This document shows, in pieces, positions 4,308-55,125 of a stretch of DNA of 64,000 nucleotides; position 1 is the stretch's first letter; each line of letters opens with the position of its first letter. The notes beneath the pieces were generated by a model. That model was not told the DNA's origin, ran no database searches, and was given only the letters and a program-made list of their open reading frames with translations. This DNA is from a virus. The translations under genes and the position numbers were made by a program. Where the stretch lies: IMG/VR virus record IMGVR_UViG_3300042691_037543, positions 1 to 64,000 of that record; one strand, written 5' to 3'.

Positions 4308-5492
4308 ATGGACGTGCTCGAAGTGCTCAAGGTTGCCTACTTCGCGCGGGGTGGGTCCTACGGTGACGGGCTGCCGTTGCTGTTTTGGGGCCTCCCCGGC
4401 CCCGGAAAGACCGCGATCATCGAGCAGTTCGCTCGGTCGCTCGGGGTGCACTGCGAGGTGCTCTCCCCCGGCGAGCGCGGGGAGGGTGCCTTTGGGTGCG
4501 TGCCCGTGCCCGTGGGGAAGGCGAAGGATACGCGCATCGCGTACCCGCCGCCTTGGTGGCTGGATGACTTCAACGACAGGCCGGGCTCCATCCTCTTCGT
4601 GGATGAGCTGTCGTCGGCGCCCCCCGCGTTGCACCCGCCGCTGCTCGGTCTGATTCAGGCCAAGCGCATCGGCGGGAGCGAGCTCCCGCGCACGACGAGG
4701 GTTTTCGCAGCTGCGAACCCCCCGGAGTGCGCGGCGGGGGGCTTCGACCTCGCGCCCCCGGTGGCGAACCGGCTCGGCCACATCCAGTGGCCGATGCCCA
4801 CTGCTGAGCAGTGGGCCGACTACATGATCGGCGGCGCTTCGGGCGTGCGCCGCCCCATCGACGTGGCAGCCGCCACGTCGCTCGTGGAATCGGGCTGGGA
4901 CGCCGCGTTCGCGGCGGCGTCCGCGCTAACCAGCGCGTTCGCCCGAGCGAACCCCGGCATCCTGCACAGGATGCCGACGGAAGGGAGTGCCGCGAAGGCG
5001 TGGCCCTCCCACCGAACCTGGGAGCTCGCCACGCGAGCTCTCGCATCGGCCCGGCTGCACCGGGCCAGCGAAGAGACGAGCATCACGCTCGTCTCGGCCT
5101 TCGTTGGCGATGGCGCCGCCAGCGAGTTCCTGACGTGGGCGGCGCGTCAAGACCTCCCCGACGCTGGGGAGTTGTTGGATGGTCGTGCGACGTTCAAGCA
5201 CGACCCGACACGGGCCGACCGCACGCATGTGGTCGCGTCGGCCCTCGCGGCGACGCTCATCAGTGAGCGCGCCGACAAGGCGCGCTTCTCCGCGCGCGCC
5301 GAAAAGATGTGGGCGATCTTCGACGGCTTGGCCGTCGAAGGTGTGGACTTGATCTACGGTGCCGCGCGAGCGGCGCTCCTGGCCGCCAAGAACGGCCACC
5401 CGCTCGCGCCCGCGCTTACGACGGGCACGGCTTGGATTCGGGTGATGACCCGAATCAAACCGGCCCTCGCGGCGGCGGGCATCACCCCGTAG
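4308..5492 (+). CDS. MoxR-type AAA+ ATPase
   Basis: This 394-residue AAA+ protein has Walker A GLPGPGKT at 28-35, Walker B ILFVDEL at 95-101 and a sensor-1 segment AAANP at about 134-138, followed by a helical lid region. MoxR ATPases remodel partner complexes and are normally encoded beside a von Willebrand A protein, exactly as here: the next gene has a VWA domain with a MIDAS motif. ATG 4308 follows GGTGGGTCA. It opens the rightward operon after the structured region. The substrate is unknown. The AAA assignment is secure; the MoxR subfamily rests on motif spacing and the partner. Confidence 0.85.
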   Translation: MDVLEVLKVAYFARGGSYGDGLPLLFWGLPGPGKTAIIEQFARSLGVHCEVLSPGERGEGAFGCVPVPVGKAKDTRIAYPPPWWLDDFNDRPGSILFVDELSSAPPALHPPLLGLIQAKRIGGSELPRTTRVFAAANPPECAAGGFDLAPPVANRLGHIQWPMPTAEQWADYMIGGASGVRRPIDVAAATSLVESGWDAAFAAASALTSAFARANPGILHRMPTEGSAAKAWPSHRTWELATRALASARLHRASEETSITLVSAFVGDGAASEFLTWAARQDLPDAGELLDGRATFKHDPTRADRTHVVASALAATLISERADKARFSARAEKMWAIFDGLAVEGVDLIYGAARAALLAAKNGHPLAPALTTGTAWIRVMTRIKPALAAAGITP

Positions 5493-34187: not shown

Positions 34188-35360
34188 ATGGAGCTCTCAC
34201 TCGAAAAGCACTTCACGAAGCTCTACCGCACTATGCTCGACAAGCCCGCGGAGGTATTCGCGCTCCGCGGCGCGGTTGGGGTGGCCATCGTGCACTGGCT
34301 GGATTCCGGCTGGAACGTGTACCTGCCCGGTGAACCGTTGGTGCGGCGTCACTGGGCCGATTACCCCGAAGCTCGTCAGGCTATCGAGGCGTTGGTGGTC
34401 CGTGTTGGTGGGATGCTTTTCGCTGGGCGCCCGCTGACGCACCCGAATGTGTCGATGAGCTGTGGTGAGCGTGGTGGGCCGGGAAAAGGGCGCTTGGTGT
34501 ACCGCGTTCGCGTCGGCGCGGACCAGGAGGTATTCGACGACGCGAACGCGGCAGCGCTGCGATGGATGATCGCCGTTGCCGAGTACGCGGAGACGCCTGC
34601 GGAGACGCCGGCCGAGCCCTACGTCCGCCCGCTCAACAAGCAAGACTTCGACGTGCACGACGAGATGAACCCCGACGGCACCGTCAGGTGCACGGTGTAC
34701 GCGCTTCGGAACGGCCAGGGGCTCCGTATCGCGTACTGGCCCTCCGAGGGGATGTACGAAGCGTACGATGTTAACGAGACGTTGCAGTACACGGGCTACT
34801 TCTGCGCGGTAGAGTTCGATGCCGCAATCGACAAGCTGCGGCAGGTTGCTGTGCAGTCATTGGCTGCGTATCATCTGCCTTTCAAGCTAGACGGCGCGAC
34901 CCGCCGCGCCGTCGAGAGCCCTGACGGCAAGCGCTGGACGTTCGCGTCTGCGGAGAACGCGCAGCGCTATTGGTTGGCGAGCATCGCGGGGCACATACCG
35001 CCGGCCACCACCCCGGAGCCCGCCGAGCCTAGTGCGGTGCCGGTCGAGTCCACCGACGACGAAGGAGGGAAGAAGTACGACGGCGGCAAGCCCGACTACG
35101 CACTCCTTCCGCCGCTCGCGATCGATGCGATGGTGCGCGTGCTCACCTACGGGGCGAAGAAGTACGGCCCCGACAACTGGCGCAAGGTGCCCGACCTGCG
35201 GCGCCGGTACCTCTCCGCGCTGCTGCGGCATGTCTTCGCGCACATGCGGGGCGAGACGCGCGACCCCGAGACGGGGGAGAACCACCTCGCGCACGCGCTG
35301 TGCTGCGTGGCCTTCATTCTTGAGCTCGACGAGGAGAGCGCGACCTCTGGGAAGGCGTGA
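34188..35360 (+). CDS. Protein with C-terminal dATP/dGTP diphosphohydrolase-like domain
   Basis: This is a 390-residue protein. Residues about 292-385 match the dATP/dGTP diphosphohydrolase N-type domain (DUF5664-like): GGKKYDGGKPDYALLPPLAI, LTYGAKKYGPDNWRK and RHVFAHMRGETRDPETGENH with HxxH-type metal ligands. The N-terminal 280 residues are a separate unrecognised part with two similar alpha/beta segments. This family hydrolyses dGTP or dATP and occurs in phages that remodel nucleotide pools, including some 2-aminoadenine phages. A MazG-like gene follows at 35623. Confidence 0.75.
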   Translation: MELSLEKHFTKLYRTMLDKPAEVFALRGAVGVAIVHWLDSGWNVYLPGEPLVRRHWADYPEARQAIEALVVRVGGMLFAGRPLTHPNVSMSCGERGGPGKGRLVYRVRVGADQEVFDDANAAALRWMIAVAEYAETPAETPAEPYVRPLNKQDFDVHDEMNPDGTVRCTVYALRNGQGLRIAYWPSEGMYEAYDVNETLQYTGYFCAVEFDAAIDKLRQVAVQSLAAYHLPFKLDGATRRAVESPDGKRWTFASAENAQRYWLASIAGHIPPATTPEPAEPSAVPVESTDDEGGKKYDGGKPDYALLPPLAIDAMVRVLTYGAKKYGPDNWRKVPDLRRRYLSALLRHVFAHMRGETRDPETGENHLAHALCCVAFILELDEESATSGKA

Positions 35361-44508: not shown

Positions 44509-44913
44509 TCACGTCTCCGTGATGTCGAGCTCACCCGCGGCGAACTGCGCCGTGTCGCCGCTGCCGATCGCCTTCGGCGTCGTCAGGTCGCCCCAGTAGA
44601 GCATGTTGCCGCCGCTGCTCGCGTCCATGATCGCGAACGCAACGACGGTGCCCCACGAAGCGGATGCCGTGGTGAACGAGATCGTCGAGGTGTTCGCGGT
44701 GGCGCCGCCCGACGCGGCGTCCCACGTCCCACCCGCGCGGGAGACGGCGGCGCGGGCGTAGCTCCCGCCCGTCACCTCGGTCCCGCCCCCGGCGTCCGTC
44801 GGGGCGACGGTGAACAGCGCGACGTACAGCGTGCCGGGGAGGCTCAGCGCTACGCCGCGCAGGAGGTCGTTGAGCAGGTTGTTCGAGAAAGCGGTGGTCT
44901 TGCTACCGGCCAT
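44509..44913 (-). CDS. Phage tail fibre-type protein
   Basis: This 134-residue protein has SNNLLNDLLRGVALSLPGTL, YVALFTVAPTDAGGGTEVTG and SWGTVVAFAIMDASSGGNML. This pattern (start helix, 'YVALFT.P.D.G.GTE', 'GYARAAV') is common to small putative tail fibre or adsorption proteins of many phages. It overlaps the lipoprotein gene by 11 bases. Confidence 0.65.
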   Translation of the reverse strand: MAGSKTTAFSNNLLNDLLRGVALSLPGTLYVALFTVAPTDAGGGTEVTGGSYARAAVSRAGGTWDAASGGATANTSTISFTTASASWGTVVAFAIMDASSGGNMLYWGDLTTPKAIGSGDTAQFAAGELDITET

Positions 44914-45532
44914 GCGCGGACGATAGCACGGTCAGTAGCCGCACATCCGCGTGGCGCAGGTACACGTCGAGGCTCAGTCCGTCGCCGAGGTCAGGGATAC
45001 GCGGAGCGAGGATCGCGGGGCCGAACACCTCCTCATGGCAGTCGGCTACCTCGCTGGGGAACGCACAGACATGGCCGAGCCAGCGGTGACGGTCCCAGGT
45101 CAGCCAGTGGAGCAGCTCGTGGGTCGCCACCCACGCGAGCACGTCCTCACTCGGCGTACACGCCGGGTCGATCTCGACGTACCGCGCCCCCGCGACGTAC
45201 CGCCCCGAGCCCTCCACCGCGCAGCTCGACGCCGGGTAGGCGTAGATCACCACGTCCGCGCTCCCGGTGCCGCTCGCGACCCAGGTATCGCCCGTCGCAG
45301 CGAGCACGCGGAGCACGCGACCGAGGAGCACTTCGCGCTGCTCGGGTCGCCATCCCGTCGTGCCGTCGAGACTGTCCTCCGCTGCGACGCGGATTGTGCG
45401 CCCGGTGAGTCGCGCGTGAAACTCCTCCGCGGGGCACGCGAGGAGTAGCGCGCTGAGGAGAATCGCGACGGCTACGCGCAGGGCGGTCGCCAAGGAGTGC
45501 GTCACGGCCGAGGCCCACGCCCCGGGGGCCAT
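44903..45532 (-). CDS. Lipoprotein with HExxH metalloprotease motif
   Basis: This 209-residue protein has an N-terminal hydrophobic signal with lipobox ILLSALLLAC (Cys near 33), then an extracytoplasmic domain with THELLHWLTW (HExxH, about 138-147) and nearby His residues (WDRHRWLGH). It looks like a secreted zinc peptidase anchored in the membrane. A possible role is surface modification or superinfection exclusion; a virion-associated role is less likely because of the signal. Basis: signal and zinc motif seen, role inferred. Confidence 0.6.
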   Translation of the reverse strand: MAPGAWASAVTHSLATALRVAVAILLSALLLACPAEEFHARLTGRTIRVAAEDSLDGTTGWRPEQREVLLGRVLRVLAATGDTWVASGTGSADVVIYAYPASSCAVEGSGRYVAGARYVEIDPACTPSEDVLAWVATHELLHWLTWDRHRWLGHVCAFPSEVADCHEEVFGPAILAPRIPDLGDGLSLDVYLRHADVRLLTVLSSAHGR

Positions 45533-46951: not shown

Positions 46952-49900
46952 CTACGGCTCGAACACCAATTCCGCACTGTAGAGGGCTTTCGGCGAGGTG
47001 TTCCCGCCGTTATCACCGTCCACCGTGACCGTGAAAATGTCGCCGTCGGCCGGCGGCCAGTTCGACCCGCCAAGGGTGTTGAGGTTCGGCGACACGAGCT
47101 CGACGAGCGCTAGGGAACTCGACTCCAAGTAGAACTGCCCCACGTCGAGCTCCACGGCGCCGACTGTGCTGTTGTACAGCCGCACGCGGACGTTCTCGGT
47201 GATGTCGGTCGTCGCGACGACGCATCGGAAGTAGGCCGCGCCGCTGTTGTCGTGCTCGGCGGTACGAAACACGTCGCCACCGCCGGTTACCTCCGCGTTG
47301 ATCGCTTCGAGATACGCCTTGTGCAGCGTCAGAATCGTCCTCGTCGCCGCGGGAGAGCTGCCCGCCCCGAGGTGCGACGCGAGGATCAGCCATCCGCTCG
47401 ACGGGGTGCCGTCGGTGTACGCGCCGAGCTCGTACGAGTCGTTCCACTTGAGCGTGATGTTGCTGCTCTTGTAGTCGATGGTCGTGCCGCTGAATCGCGC
47501 GAGCGTCAGGTCGGTCTTGTAGGTCGGCCCGGTGTACTTCACCCGCAGCTTGCGCCCGTGCGAGAGCTCGGTCGGGTTCGGCAGCGTCACCGTGAACGTG
47601 GTCGCGCCCGCGGGGATGATGAGCGCGTACGTCGTGCTCGGCGCGATGCTCGCCGTGCCCGTGATTACTTGGAGTACCTCGTCGTGCACCGACGTGTACC
47701 CGTTGATTGAGATGCCGGCCTTCGTCTTGTAGGGGATCGTCGAGCTGGCGCCGATGACCGAGTAGTGCCCGCCCACTTGCACGCTGCCCGAAGCGTCGCT
47801 GGTGTTGAACAGATACGAAGTGCTGTTGCCGCTCGCGAAGACGTGGTTGCCGAGGAGCTTCACCACGGAGCTGCCCGACAGCATGAACATGCTGTTTTCG
47901 GTCGCGGTAAGCGCCGCCGTGATCGCGTTCACGCCTGGGAACAACACGAGCTCGGATGCGCCCGCGAGCTTGAACTGCCCGTTCGTCGTCGTGATCTCGG
48001 GATGGAGAATCCCGAGGTACGTCAGACCGCCCGCGGAGGAGTCGAGCACCGGGGGCTGCGCGCTCGACGAGTTCGTAGTCGTCGCCGAGCGCACGCGGAC
48101 GTTGATCTGCCCACCGATGTTTTCAAACGCACCGACGCTGCTCGACGACGTGCACGCGACGCGCTCGAACGTCCCAACAAGCGCCGCCACAACCGCATCG
48201 GTCTTGACGCGGATCGCGCCGACGGAGCCAGACCCGTTGGCCTGCACGCTCACGTCGTCCACGAACATGATCGCGGCAGCCTTGTCACCCGCGGGGTTAA
48301 CAAGGATGCCTTCGTTCGTCCCGGTGTTTTCGACCGTGAGGTGCGCCGCGCCGCAGTAGTCGATATCCGTCGGGCCGTACGAACTGTCTGTCGTGAACGT
48401 CGCGGTGATGCGCGTAACGACGGTCACATCGCGGCAGCCCGCGAGCCCTGTGACGAACCACCCCGGTTCAAGCACCACGGTTTCCGCGTACGTTCCCGGC
48501 AGGAACACGAACACGCACGGGTTGTCGGCGTTCGTGTGACCGTCGGTCTGCGCCTGCGCCTTCGCCGCCGCGTACGTCGCGAACTGCGGGCTCGCGCCGT
48601 AAGGGCCGACGCCCGCAGCGCCGATGATGTACTCCGGCAACACTCCGCGGCTGCCGATGGGTACCCACGCCGAGCCCGTGTAGAACTCGAACTGCCCCGT
48701 CGTGGTGTTGTAGATGAGCAGCGACGTAGCGGGCGACGCGATGGCGTTGCGCTGCGTCGTCGTCATGCGCGGGATGAGCAGACCCTTCGTGGTCGAGTTC
48801 ATCTCCAGCATCGCCGTCGTAACAGGCGTCGTGCCGAGGCCGAGCGACGTTTCGATGCGCGCGGAGCCCGCGCCGGGGTCCGTCGTCGTGCCCACCATCA
48901 AGCCCTGCACCACACGCACGCGGTCGGTCGCGTTCGTGCGCAGGATGATCGGGTTCGCTCCGGTGGCTTCGAGCGTCAGCTCCGCGTTGCCGAGGAGCGT
49001 TCTCCCCGTAGCCATTTGCAGGTTGGCGTCGAAGGTCTTGACGCCCGTGATGGTCTGCGCGCCCGCGAGCTTGACGTAGAGCGCGTCGTTATTTCCTTCG
49101 AGGATTGTCCCGGCCGTCGTGCCGAATGTAACCCCAAGGGTGAACGAGGCCCCGGTGCCTCCTCCCGTGAGCGGCGCGCTGGTGTTGATCGTGATGGAGC
49201 TCGCCGGGGGCGCGGCCCAGGTAGGCGCCGAGCCGGCGCCGTTCGTCTGGAGGAGGTAGCCCGCGGTGCCGGGGGCGAGGCGCACCCACCCAGAGGCGTT
49301 CCGGTAGAGCAAGTCGCCGTGCGCTTCGCTCGCGACGCTGAACGAGAGGTTGAAGGTCGAGCCGGTGGCGCCACCTTGCAGCGGCGACGCGGTGTTGATG
49401 GTGACGGAGCTCGACGCGGGGGTAGCCCACGCCGGCACACCGCCGGAGACGGTGAGCACCTGCCCCGCGCTCCCGATCCCGAGGCGCTGCCACGTCCCAC
49501 CTGCGCGGCGAACAATGTCGCCGTCCGCCTGCCCGGTGAACTGGAACGAGAGCGTGCGGTTGGCGCTCAGGTCTACCGCGGAGTGAACGCCCGCGACGGC
49601 GATGGGCTCGGCGCCCGTGAGCGTGCGAGTGAGCGGAACGAACGCACCGTCGAAGTCGGGGAACGCACCGTCCCACCACAGCGAGTACGGGCCGGAGCCT
49701 GCGGCGACGTGGCCGACGATCCGGCGAACCGTACCCTGCGTCGCCGAGAGCGTGCCCGAGTCGTCGAGGTAGACGAGGGCGCCCACCGCGGGGCTGCCGG
49801 CGACGCTGAGCCCTTGCGCGAGGCCCACCGTGCGAACCTGAAAGAGCTTGCCGGCGGTGATCGCGCCGCCGTCTACCGACTGCACGACCACGCCGAGCAT

Positions 49901-50443
49901 CCCGCGGCAATTCGCCGCCGTCGTGGCGTTCGCCGAGCCCCAGCGCGAGAGCACTTCCTGACCGGGGAGTGTCGCTTTGATCGTCGTCGTGCTGACGACG
50001 CGCACCACCTGCCCTACCGAGAGCGATCCATCTGCGACGCCGATGAACACGCCGGGGTCGGTTTTCGCCGTCTCGGCGAGTTGGAGGACGAGGTTCGCCG
50101 CGAGCGCCCAGCCCTTCGTGGAGTTCACCTCGGAGGTTTCACTCGCCGCCGGGACGCGCATCCGCGTCTTGAGCTGGCGCACGGCGCACACCACCTTGTT
50201 CTCCAAGGTGCCGTTCACCGTGAGCTTGATGAGGTAGCTCCCCTCCTTCTTCGGCGTGAAGGTAACGGAGGGCGCACTCGACGAGCTCAGCGTGTCCGCG
50301 GTGCCGACGGGCTGATCGACGATCTCCCACAGGTACGTTGTCTCGCCGCCCACGTTGTCGTTGGCGAGCGTAACCAGCGTGTCGATGGGGAGATCGTCGT
50401 TCGAGCCGACGACCGCGTTGACGGTGATGAGGGCTTGCGGCAT
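46952..50443 (-). CDS. Giant tail fibre protein
   Basis: This 1163-residue protein opens with a PKD/Ig-like domain (about 1-95, VAVTLANDN-type; TYLWEIVDQPVGTADTLSSS). A middle follows with repeated 'TINTASPLQGGATGSTFNLS'-type segments (about 340-450). A pectin-lyase-like beta-helix is likely at about 600-900 (CVFVFLPGTYAETVVLEPGW; many NxT/GxI repeats). Three further beta domains close it. No depolymerase active site can be assigned. It is the largest gene of the window and the main candidate receptor-binding or shaft protein. Confidence 0.7.
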   Translation of the reverse strand: MPQALITVNAVVGSNDDLPIDTLVTLANDNVGGETTYLWEIVDQPVGTADTLSSSSAPSVTFTPKKEGSYLIKLTVNGTLENKVVCAVRQLKTRMRVPAASETSEVNSTKGWALAANLVLQLAETAKTDPGVFIGVADGSLSVGQVVRVVSTTTIKATLPGQEVLSRWGSANATTAANCRGMLGVVVQSVDGGAITAGKLFQVRTVGLAQGLSVAGSPAVGALVYLDDSGTLSATQGTVRRIVGHVAAGSGPYSLWWDGAFPDFDGAFVPLTRTLTGAEPIAVAGVHSAVDLSANRTLSFQFTGQADGDIVRRAGGTWQRLGIGSAGQVLTVSGGVPAWATPASSSVTINTASPLQGGATGSTFNLSFSVASEAHGDLLYRNASGWVRLAPGTAGYLLQTNGAGSAPTWAAPPASSITINTSAPLTGGGTGASFTLGVTFGTTAGTILEGNNDALYVKLAGAQTITGVKTFDANLQMATGRTLLGNAELTLEATGANPIILRTNATDRVRVVQGLMVGTTTDPGAGSARIETSLGLGTTPVTTAMLEMNSTTKGLLIPRMTTTQRNAIASPATSLLIYNTTTGQFEFYTGSAWVPIGSRGVLPEYIIGAAGVGPYGASPQFATYAAAKAQAQTDGHTNADNPCVFVFLPGTYAETVVLEPGWFVTGLAGCRDVTVVTRITATFTTDSSYGPTDIDYCGAAHLTVENTGTNEGILVNPAGDKAAAIMFVDDVSVQANGSGSVGAIRVKTDAVVAALVGTFERVACTSSSSVGAFENIGGQINVRVRSATTTNSSSAQPPVLDSSAGGLTYLGILHPEITTTNGQFKLAGASELVLFPGVNAITAALTATENSMFMLSGSSVVKLLGNHVFASGNSTSYLFNTSDASGSVQVGGHYSVIGASSTIPYKTKAGISINGYTSVHDEVLQVITGTASIAPSTTYALIIPAGATTFTVTLPNPTELSHGRKLRVKYTGPTYKTDLTLARFSGTTIDYKSSNITLKWNDSYELGAYTDGTPSSGWLILASHLGAGSSPAATRTILTLHKAYLEAINAEVTGGGDVFRTAEHDNSGAAYFRCVVATTDITENVRVRLYNSTVGAVELDVGQFYLESSSLALVELVSPNLNTLGGSNWPPADGDIFTVTVDGDNGGNTSPKALYSAELVFEP

Positions 50444-50477: not shown

Positions 50478-50759
50478 TCAGACGGGCTCGAAAATCCGCG
50501 TGTCGTTGAGCATGAGCGTGCTCGTGTCGATCATCTCGTTCGGGTCATCGACGCTGACGAGCGTGCACGGGCCGTTTGGTATACGCGCGCACGCCGCGAG
50601 CTCGTAGACGCGCCCCTTGTATCGGTACCGTGGCAGGCCGCTATGGGCGGCCTTCACCTGCGGGGTGCGAGCAGGCTTGTACCGCGCGCACGCCGTCTTG
50701 TGGCCGAACACCCCGTCGCAGAGATCGCACTGCGACTGCGAGCCTTCCCATGCGCTCAC
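50478..50759 (-). CDS. Small Cys-rich protein
   Basis: This 93-residue protein starts at GTG 50759, sharing the GTGA overlap with the Acb2/Tad1-like stop. The N-terminus holds CDLCDGVFGHKTACARY (about 11-27), a Cys/Cys/His/Cys zinc-like knuckle; the C-terminus is acidic. No family was recognised. Translational coupling suggests it works with the anti-defence candidate. Confidence 0.55.
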   Translation of the reverse strand: MSAWEGSQSQCDLCDGVFGHKTACARYKPARTPQVKAAHSGLPRYRYKGRVYELAACARIPNGPCTLVSVDDPNEMIDTSTLMLNDTRIFEPV

Positions 50760-50959
50760 TTGGCGAGCACCGCGCGCACGGCGGCGTCTTTCGACTCCAG
50801 CAGCTTGCGCAGCGCGACGGAGCGTTCGGCGTTCCGCGGAGTCGCCGCGACGATGTTGTGGGCGAGGTCGCTGAACGGCTTGCTGGCCGCTTGGAGTTGC
50901 ACGGGCAAGTGCGCATACGAGAAGAATTGCAGGATGGGCTCGGGTTGCTCGGTGTGCAT
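50756..50959 (-). CDS. Acb2/Tad1-like hairpin-domain protein (putative anti-CBASS/anti-Thoeris sponge)
   Basis: This 67-residue protein contains FFSYAHLPVQLQAASKPFSD, then LAHNIVAATPRNAERSVALR and KLLESKDAAVRAVL. The order 'PF.DLA..IV...PRN.ERSVALRKLLE.KDAAVRA' is the hairpin domain I associate with the Acb2/Tad1 family, whose members bind cyclic nucleotides or gcADPR signals of the CBASS and Thoeris defences and so block them. The assignment is from memory of the family, not a search. It lies between baseplate and fibre genes and is coupled to a Cys-rich partner. Confidence 0.65.
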   Translation of the reverse strand: MHTEQPEPILQFFSYAHLPVQLQAASKPFSDLAHNIVAATPRNAERSVALRKLLESKDAAVRAVLAK

Positions 50960-50968
50960 GCGGCGAGG

Positions 50969-51154
50969 CTAGTGCGCCATGCCCGAGCGCACAACCCACC
51001 GCGGCCAGAACGGGTCGCTGTCGGTGAGGAACCGCAGGAGCTGCTCGTGAACCTGCTCGCGCAAGCGGAGGTTCCACGGCAGCGCAGCGAGGTCACCCTT
51101 GATCCACTGTTCGGCGTAGGCCACCGCCTCGTCGCGATTCTTCGGTACGCGCAT
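50969..51154 (-). CDS. Short hypothetical protein (61 aa)
   Basis: The product is rich in Trp and Arg (AEQWIKGDLAALPWNLRLRE, DPFWPRWVVRSGMAH). It starts at ATG 51154, overlapping the last base of the preceding tail gene stop, and ends ten bases before the Acb2/Tad1-like start. No family was recognised. Confidence 0.5.
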   Translation of the reverse strand: MRVPKNRDEAVAYAEQWIKGDLAALPWNLRLREQVHEQLLRFLTDSDPFWPRWVVRSGMAH

Positions 51155-53916: not shown

Positions 53917-55125
53917 CTAGTACGCGGGCGCGTCGGGGTTGTTGCTGCCCTGGAGCGTGCGGTCTGGTTGCACGCTGGTGGCGACGACGATGGCGGACGA
54001 GCTGCGGAGCACTTGGAGTGGGGCCACGTTCACGTCACCCACTGGTGAAAGAATCTCCTGCCCCGTTACGTCCAGACCGTTCACCGCGCGGAGTCGTTGA
54101 ATCATGCTGGCGATGGTCAGGTCTTGCCCGGGTGCGAGCGAGTTGATGTACGCCGCGATCACTCCGCGGGCGTTCATCGCCACCGTGTCGGCGTCGCTGC
54201 CGGCGTAGAAGCGCAGACCGAGCGTGACAGCCTGCATCACGACCGATGCGACCTGCACCTGCACGAAGATGCCGGCGGCGCGGGTGTCGGAGAGCGCGTT
54301 GAACACTTGGTTCGCGAGCGTCTGGCTCTGCGACTGATACGACGCGGGCGTCGGGTCCAAGTCCATCAGCGCCTCGGTGAACGCATCGGTTACGATGAGA
54401 TTCACGAAGCGCGCGGGCCGCCCGAGCTGATCCTGCCCCTCGAACGCAGTAGCGGTGCGGACACCCGGGACACCACGCGCCGCAAACTCGATGGCGGGCA
54501 GGGTGCCTCGGCGGGCCGTTGTAAAGAACAACCGCGCCCGCGCGCGCAGCTGGTCGTCTGTCTCTTCGTCGTCGGCGCCCGTCGTCGCGACGGTATTCGT
54601 CACGCGAAGGTCCGCCGGCGCACCGACGATGGGCGTAACGATAGATGTGATCGTGCCGACGCGCGCTTGGTTCTCCAAGCCAGGAAACACGGATCGAACT
54701 TCGACGGCGACCGGCCCCGTGCTACCTGCGTTGAACGTCGCATCGACCCAGGTGATGAACTCCTTACCGTCGGAGGTCTGTAGCTTCACACCCTTGGGGA
54801 TCGAGAACGTGCCGGGCGACGGCGCCGTCGTGCTGAACAGCACCGTACCGAGCGCCTGCGACGCCGGCTTGCGGGTCATGCCGCTGCATCGGTCGAACAC
54901 GAGCCGGTCGAGGTCTTTCTTCTTCGCGACGCTCAGCAACAACGCACCCTGCGCGCGCACCAGCTGCGCGCTCAGGTCATCCCCCACCGAGGCGATGGCC
55001 GCCACGATGGAGTTGGTGTCCGTACCCTCGCGCTCGATCACCTCGCGAGTGAGCTTCGAGTTACGCGACAGCATGGCGTCGCGGGCGATGCGGAAGTAGT
55101 CCTCGAACGAAGGTGCGTCAGCCAT
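53917..55125 (-). CDS. Baseplate J-like protein
   Basis: This 402-residue protein matches phage baseplate J. The N-terminal helix (EDYFRIARDAMLSRNSKLTR) and 'GTVLFSTTAPSPGTFSIPKG' lead to 'ADDEETDDQLRARARLFF' and 'GTLPAIEFAARGVPGVRTA', with 'GRPARFVNLIVTDAF' beyond. These are the conserved segments of gpJ/gp6 wedge proteins. It forms the outer wedge ring that triggers sheath contraction. It is flanked by the gp25-like and 52293 genes, as in other myoviruses. Confidence 0.8.
   Translation of the reverse strand: MADAPSFEDYFRIARDAMLSRNSKLTREVIEREGTDTNSIVAAIASVGDDLSAQLVRAQGALLLSVAKKKDLDRLVFDRCSGMTRKPASQALGTVLFSTTAPSPGTFSIPKGVKLQTSDGKEFITWVDATFNAGSTGPVAVEVRSVFPGLENQARVGTITSIVTPIVGAPADLRVTNTVATTGADDEETDDQLRARARLFFTTARRGTLPAIEFAARGVPGVRTATAFEGQDQLGRPARFVNLIVTDAFTEALMDLDPTPASYQSQSQTLANQVFNALSDTRAAGIFVQVQVASVVMQAVTLGLRFYAGSDADTVAMNARGVIAAYINSLAPGQDLTIASMIQRLRAVNGLDVTGQEILSPVGDVNVAPLQVLRSSSAIVVATSVQPDRTLQGSNNPDAPAY

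Follow-up and report, generated by a model that had tools for sequence, protein, structure and literature searches.

A divergent relative of the Acb2/Tad1 hairpin domain in a phage tail gene cluster, and its candidate role as a nucleotide sponge

A 67-residue protein encoded in the tail gene cluster of a virus contig is a distant homologue of the hairpin domain shared by Acb2 and Tad1. This assignment is well supported, because profile–profile alignment with controls, reciprocal detection tests, a score like that of T4 Acb2, sub-threshold matches to PF24729 (Acb2_Tad1_hairpin), an intermediate protein and a predicted hairpin structure all point to it. The characterised hairpin members, Acb2 and Tad1, sequester nucleotide messengers, and we favour, with some reserve, the reading that the 67-residue protein is a divergent hairpin of the sponge type, which as an oligomer would sequester an anionic nucleotide second messenger and probably differs from Acb2 and Tad1 in the ligands it accepts. 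The window analysed is a stretch of 64,000 nucleotides (GC 65%) from an 84,736-base virus contig, IMG/VR record IMGVR_UViG_3300042691_037543, and the features discussed below are:

50756–50959, minus strand: 67-residue two-helix hairpin protein (P0003), divergent relative of the Acb2/Tad1 hairpin, assigned from the ORF, profiles and a structural model
50771–50839, minus strand: conserved core PRNAERSVALRKLLESKDAAVRA, residues 41–63, comprising the turn and second helix, the most invariant stretch of the family
50478–50759, minus strand: Cys-rich 93-residue orphan ORF with a GTG start, downstream, overlapping the hairpin stop codon by 4 nt (GTGA)
50969–51154, minus strand: 61-residue orphan ORF directly upstream of the hairpin gene, across a 9-nt gap
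53917–55125, minus strand: baseplate wedge subunit (phrog_6, E 2.8e-42), which marks the tail module
46952–50443, minus strand: 1163-residue fibre-like ORF, downstream of the hairpin gene

The hairpin ORF runs from an ATG start to a TGA stop and contains exactly PRNAERSVALRKLLESKDAAVRA. Its GC content by codon position (0.69/0.42/0.88) resembles that of neighbouring genes such as the baseplate gene (0.65/0.49/0.84), and the overlapping frames carry no such pattern; protein-level relatives are numerous, at 50–75% identity. Given this neighbour-like composition and the many relatives, the ORF is real and coding. The first-pass annotation had placed a 67-residue protein with the quoted pattern at these coordinates, which we confirm, adding that the gene lies on the minus strand; the pattern is no chance match, since it forms the core that stays invariant throughout a large family. 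The tail-cluster setting that it described is likewise borne out by the baseplate wedge subunit and virion-structural matches upstream of the hairpin gene and by the fibre-like ORF downstream. Still further upstream lie a baseplate-hub match and weak tape-measure matches. A search for relatives of the 61-residue upstream ORF found none, and no tRNA genes were found in the window.

Two other ORFs in the window deserve mention. A small ORF in the tail region (44903–45532, minus strand) combines a lipobox-like N-terminus, LLSALLLACPAEE, with a metzincin-like HELLHWLTWDRHRWLGH; it has no Pfam or PHROG match and is possibly a tail-associated metalloprotease. The second ORF (34188–35360, plus strand) encodes 390 residues and carries PF18909 (dATP/dGTP diphosphohydrolase N-terminal domain, 2e-31) C-terminally, preceded by about 280 residues without assignment.

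The protein belongs to PHROG 1761 (E 8.1e-27, residues 4–66) and PHROG 5120 (6e-14), a family whose function was previously unassigned. By tblastn, relatives occur in 320 GenBank phage records, where almost all of the matches listed are named 'hypothetical protein', in at least some 550 IMG/VR stretches (>550), and at 57 loci on bacterial and metagenome-assembled contigs from Alphaproteobacteria, Myxococcota, Actinobacteria, Planctomycetes and others. Across 70 distinct sequences F13, H17, L18, S26, E45, L50–E55 and K57 are invariant, and the core is retained in distant members, as LRKLLEAKDCFVR in Vibrio and Gordonia phages and as EKSAGLRKLLEAQDCMMR in Dickeya phage JA13. The core is thus conserved in phages with very different hosts, as would be expected of a protein that binds an unchanging small molecule rather than a protein of the host. 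The genes next to the relatives vary by phage (terminase, portal, capsid, tail, lysis, topoisomerase or methyltransferase genes), and the relatives themselves lie in early, packaging, head, tail and lysis regions; this lack of a conserved position fits an accessory gene. When the ORFs at 160 loci were clustered in search of a conserved operon partner, only terminase-like ORFs recurred (10–13 loci), besides frames overlapping the hairpin gene itself.

Some relatives are longer. In Ochrobactrum phage OH p62 (L087 765–1133) a zinc-finger-like CxxCxGxG domain precedes the hairpin in the same chain, and the GenBank name 'anti-TRAP' covers just this N-terminal part. One ORF in L016 (4947–5522) encodes a hairpin followed by a crAss001_48-related domain (PF21825, E 7e-16). 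Two further hairpins (L006 4716–5204 and L009 4746–5192) are preceded by related extensions of about 85 residues (MGNFKI..IEAVGGHG...HWPD..PIVD) that have no Pfam or PHROG match.

The first-pass annotation had proposed a PF24729 profile search as a check on its assignment; the 67-residue protein does not reach the 27-bit cut-off and has no match to any Pfam family, and PF24729 has no match anywhere in the parent virus record. Single-sequence searches of Pfam, NCBIfam and PDB sequences were also negative, and no close solved structure was found by sequence, the best Acb2 entry being 9ptq (E 1.1). Among 70 relatives, however, 14 match PF24729 below threshold (best E 0.0068), and in whole-record searches of Brevibacterium phage AGM1 and Vibrio phage martha the sole PF24729 signal is the gene of the present family. 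Weak matches of some relatives to TetR_C_11 and Occludin_ELL were taken as chance matches to helical stretches. The protein also matches phrog_1454 weakly (E 0.007). This is the PHROG of mycobacteriophage StellaBean gp101 (8e-30), annotated 'cyclic nucleotide sequestering protein', and T4 Acb2 matches it weakly as well (1.8e-4). The recognised Acb2 proteins have diverged very far even from one another: T4 Acb2 compared with PaP2 Acb2 gives E 0.03.

We compared an alignment of the family (A1) with an alignment of 66 annotated-type hairpins gathered from StellaBean gp101 (A2). Using hhalign, the two align in one register through helix 1 and the turn into helix 2, with a probability of 89.7 and E 1.8e-6; the score is 34.4, whereas 100 column shuffles of A2 peaked at 16.1 and reversal of the profile gave 11.7. 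When the loci are scanned with the A2 HMM, the 160 ORFs of the family stand apart from the 8064 other ORFs present there (AUC 0.9989), and the reverse test with the A1 profile gives 0.9988. Four of the other ORFs outscore family ORFs, and three of these match PF24729 and PHROG 1454, two of them being identical in sequence, with that sequence over the Pfam cut-off; some phages thus carry both kinds of hairpin. Where annotated-type records give any match to the A1 profile, it is in most cases the annotated hairpin gene. The A2 HMM scores the 67-residue protein at 10.7 bits and T4 Acb2 at 11.0 bits, and an intermediate protein in L323 scores with both profiles (17.8 and 24.3 bits).

In a replacement test, the family and the annotated hairpin co-occurred in 1 of 50 and 1 of 36 records; since these records are incomplete and chosen, this is suggestive at most of the two replacing each other. 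In L050, an over-cut-off PF24729 hairpin (1538–1762) and a divergent hairpin (4992–5192) lie about 3 kb apart on opposite strands. In L216, the ORF at 2720–2989 directly adjoins the divergent hairpin gene upstream. Its product scores 18.8 bits with the annotated-hairpin HMM and has no Pfam or PHROG match, and the pair is possibly a tandem of two hairpins.

The AlphaFold2 model of the monomer (70-sequence alignment, pLDDT 93.4) contains helices at residues 8–13, 20–39 and 44–66, a short N-terminal helix followed by two long antiparallel helices joined by a short turn (cf. PMC10419184). The same layout is described for Acb2 (PMC12043709). A control model of an annotated hairpin has helices at 13–36 and 41–64, and the P-x-x-x-E-[KR] turn is present in both, with P41, E45 and R46 matching P38, E42 and K43. 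Searching a viral structure library with Foldseek, the next named matches past members of the family itself are Acb2/Tad1 hairpin proteins (probability 0.99, TM 0.66–0.70). Foldseek against the PDB returned nothing significant and no Acb2, a search that is insensitive for such small folds, as the annotated-hairpin control reaches T4 Acb2 just at E 1.0.

In the profile register, the scaffold is shared at V25, L32, A33, P41, E45, A49, K52, L53, E55, A56 and A60, with L40 in most members and R46 standing for K. At eight positions each family has its own fixed residue. Helix 1 has S26 for R23, the invariant Arg of annotated hairpins; up to residue 57 the family has R51 for T48, L54 for E51 and K57 for M54; and beyond it D58 for F55, A59 for W56, V61 for N58 and R62, an extra Arg, for A59, in a gap-free extension of the register outside hhalign's own alignment. 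K57-D58-A59 is near-invariant in the family. The helix 2 signature T-K-L-E-E-A-M-F-W-A-N is thus absent from the 67-residue protein, which has R-K-L-L-E-A-K-D-A-A-V in its place and retains just the K, the L, the second E and the alanines. This pattern suggests that a binding surface may have been re-specified on a retained scaffold. The published Acb2 pocket residues were not found in open papers, and for this reason no pocket residue is mapped here.

Among named systems, the StellaBean gp101 family (phrog_1454) is near-equal in size (65 residues) and also a stand-alone hairpin, with the turn and helix boundaries in register; it differs in carrying R23, T48, E51, M54-F55-W56 and N58 where the 67-residue protein has S26, R51, L54, K57-D58-A59 and V61, and a further difference between the two is a shorter link from the N-terminal His to helix 1. 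The anti-CBASS sponge Acb2 (T4 Vs.4, PDB 7uq2; PaP2 p26, PDB 8h2j) has the helix layout of the 67-residue protein in common, and the T4 protein, whose function is proven (PMC11722364, PMC12657218), equals it in score against the annotated-hairpin model. Acb2 is longer, however (88–94 versus 67 residues), and T4 Acb2 retains a TKLxEAxxWA core where the present family has RKLLExKDAA. Tad1, an anti-Thoeris and anti-CBASS sponge and the other namesake of PF24729, resembles the protein in its C-terminal helix hairpin; the N-terminal beta-sheet domain of Tad1 (PMC12043709) is absent from the 67-residue protein, the model of which consists of helices only. A functional Acb2 or Tad1 sponge is characterised by a hexamer with nucleotide pockets between its subunits, which holds cyclic di-/trinucleotides or gcADPR uncleaved and thereby blocks CBASS or Thoeris.

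Based on these observations, the earlier reading of the protein as Acb2/Tad1-like holds in part: the hhalign and reciprocal AUC results establish remote homology, whereas the PF24729 match, the M-F-W-x-N patch and the invariant Arg are absent. Because of these absences we state the functional part conditionally: the protein may sequester a nucleotide and may antagonise CBASS or Thoeris. The range of ligands is probably not the one that Acb2 and Tad1 bind, since the invariant Arg, Thr, Met-Phe-Trp and Asn are replaced by Ser, Arg, Lys-Asp-Ala and Val and an extra Arg is present. We envisage that (i) the protein is a stand-alone two-helix hairpin which shares a common ancestor with the Acb2 and Tad1 hairpin domain; (ii) these small hairpins would assemble into an oligomer with pockets between subunits; (iii) the pockets would tightly bind, and not cleave, an anionic nucleotide that a defence system of the host produces as its second messenger; and (iv) the defence effector would stay off, so that infection could be completed. 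More boldly, and as a tentative proposal that we regard as rather doubtful, the family may be a branch of hairpin sponges that is very widespread yet unrecognised, with an altered pocket for a signalling nucleotide not known as an Acb2 or Tad1 ligand, which would imply a defence signal encountered by phages with hosts in many phyla.

Sequestration is the likeliest function because of the domain homology to Acb2 and Tad1, the strong cross-host conservation and the accessory-gene distribution, and two other readings have to be set against it. The hairpin may be homologous and yet do another job, having been re-purposed to bind another metabolite, a protein or a nucleic acid, for example as a late-infection regulator. 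The differences at all eight doubly fixed positions, the whole M-F-W-x-N patch included, would accord with this, as would the fusions to the crAss001_48-related and CxxCxGxG domains and the position of several relatives next to lysis genes. We nevertheless consider it the less probable course: with relatives spread from early to lysis regions no single structural or lysis role fits, and Acb2 proteins as divergent as those of T4 and PaP2 have a common function. It is unlikely that the protein is an unrelated small helical virion or tail component with a motif that came to resemble the hairpin by convergence. Its place in a tail module is what such a protein would show, the PDB fold search was not significant, and helical hairpins are common and easily predicted; but the controlled profile–profile and reciprocal ranking tests and the intermediate sequence speak for descent, and in many phages the relatives adjoin genes other than tail genes.

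A final proposal, made in the first-pass annotation, was that the hairpin and the adjacent Cys-rich protein form a two-part anti-defence unit. The 4-nt GTGA overlap would suit such a pairing, and one relative, the Ochrobactrum phage OH protein, has a Cys-rich domain in the same chain, so that elsewhere in the family a metal-binding companion may exist, although nothing points to one in this window. Short overlaps are, however, routine in phage operons, and the Cys-rich ORF is an orphan: tblastn found no relatives in GenBank phages or IMG/VR, it has no PHROG or Pfam match, and no similar ORF flanks any of the 160 hairpin relatives. The proposal is thus unsupported, and we consider it very improbable.

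Among the papers searched, none mentions PHROG 1761, PHROG 5120 or PF24729 by identifier. The title of PDB entry 9ptq, 'Acb2 homolog 43', indicates that others are surveying divergent Acb2 homologues. If the family members are sponges, a 'hypothetical' gene in hundreds of phages, including those of Vibrio, Erwinia, Acinetobacter, Gordonia, Brevibacterium, Alphaproteobacteria and Myxococcota, would become a testable anti-defence gene that a PF24729 search misses. The exchange of invariant residues on a common scaffold would, in turn, make the ligand specificity of hairpin sponges testable by mutagenesis and ligand panels.
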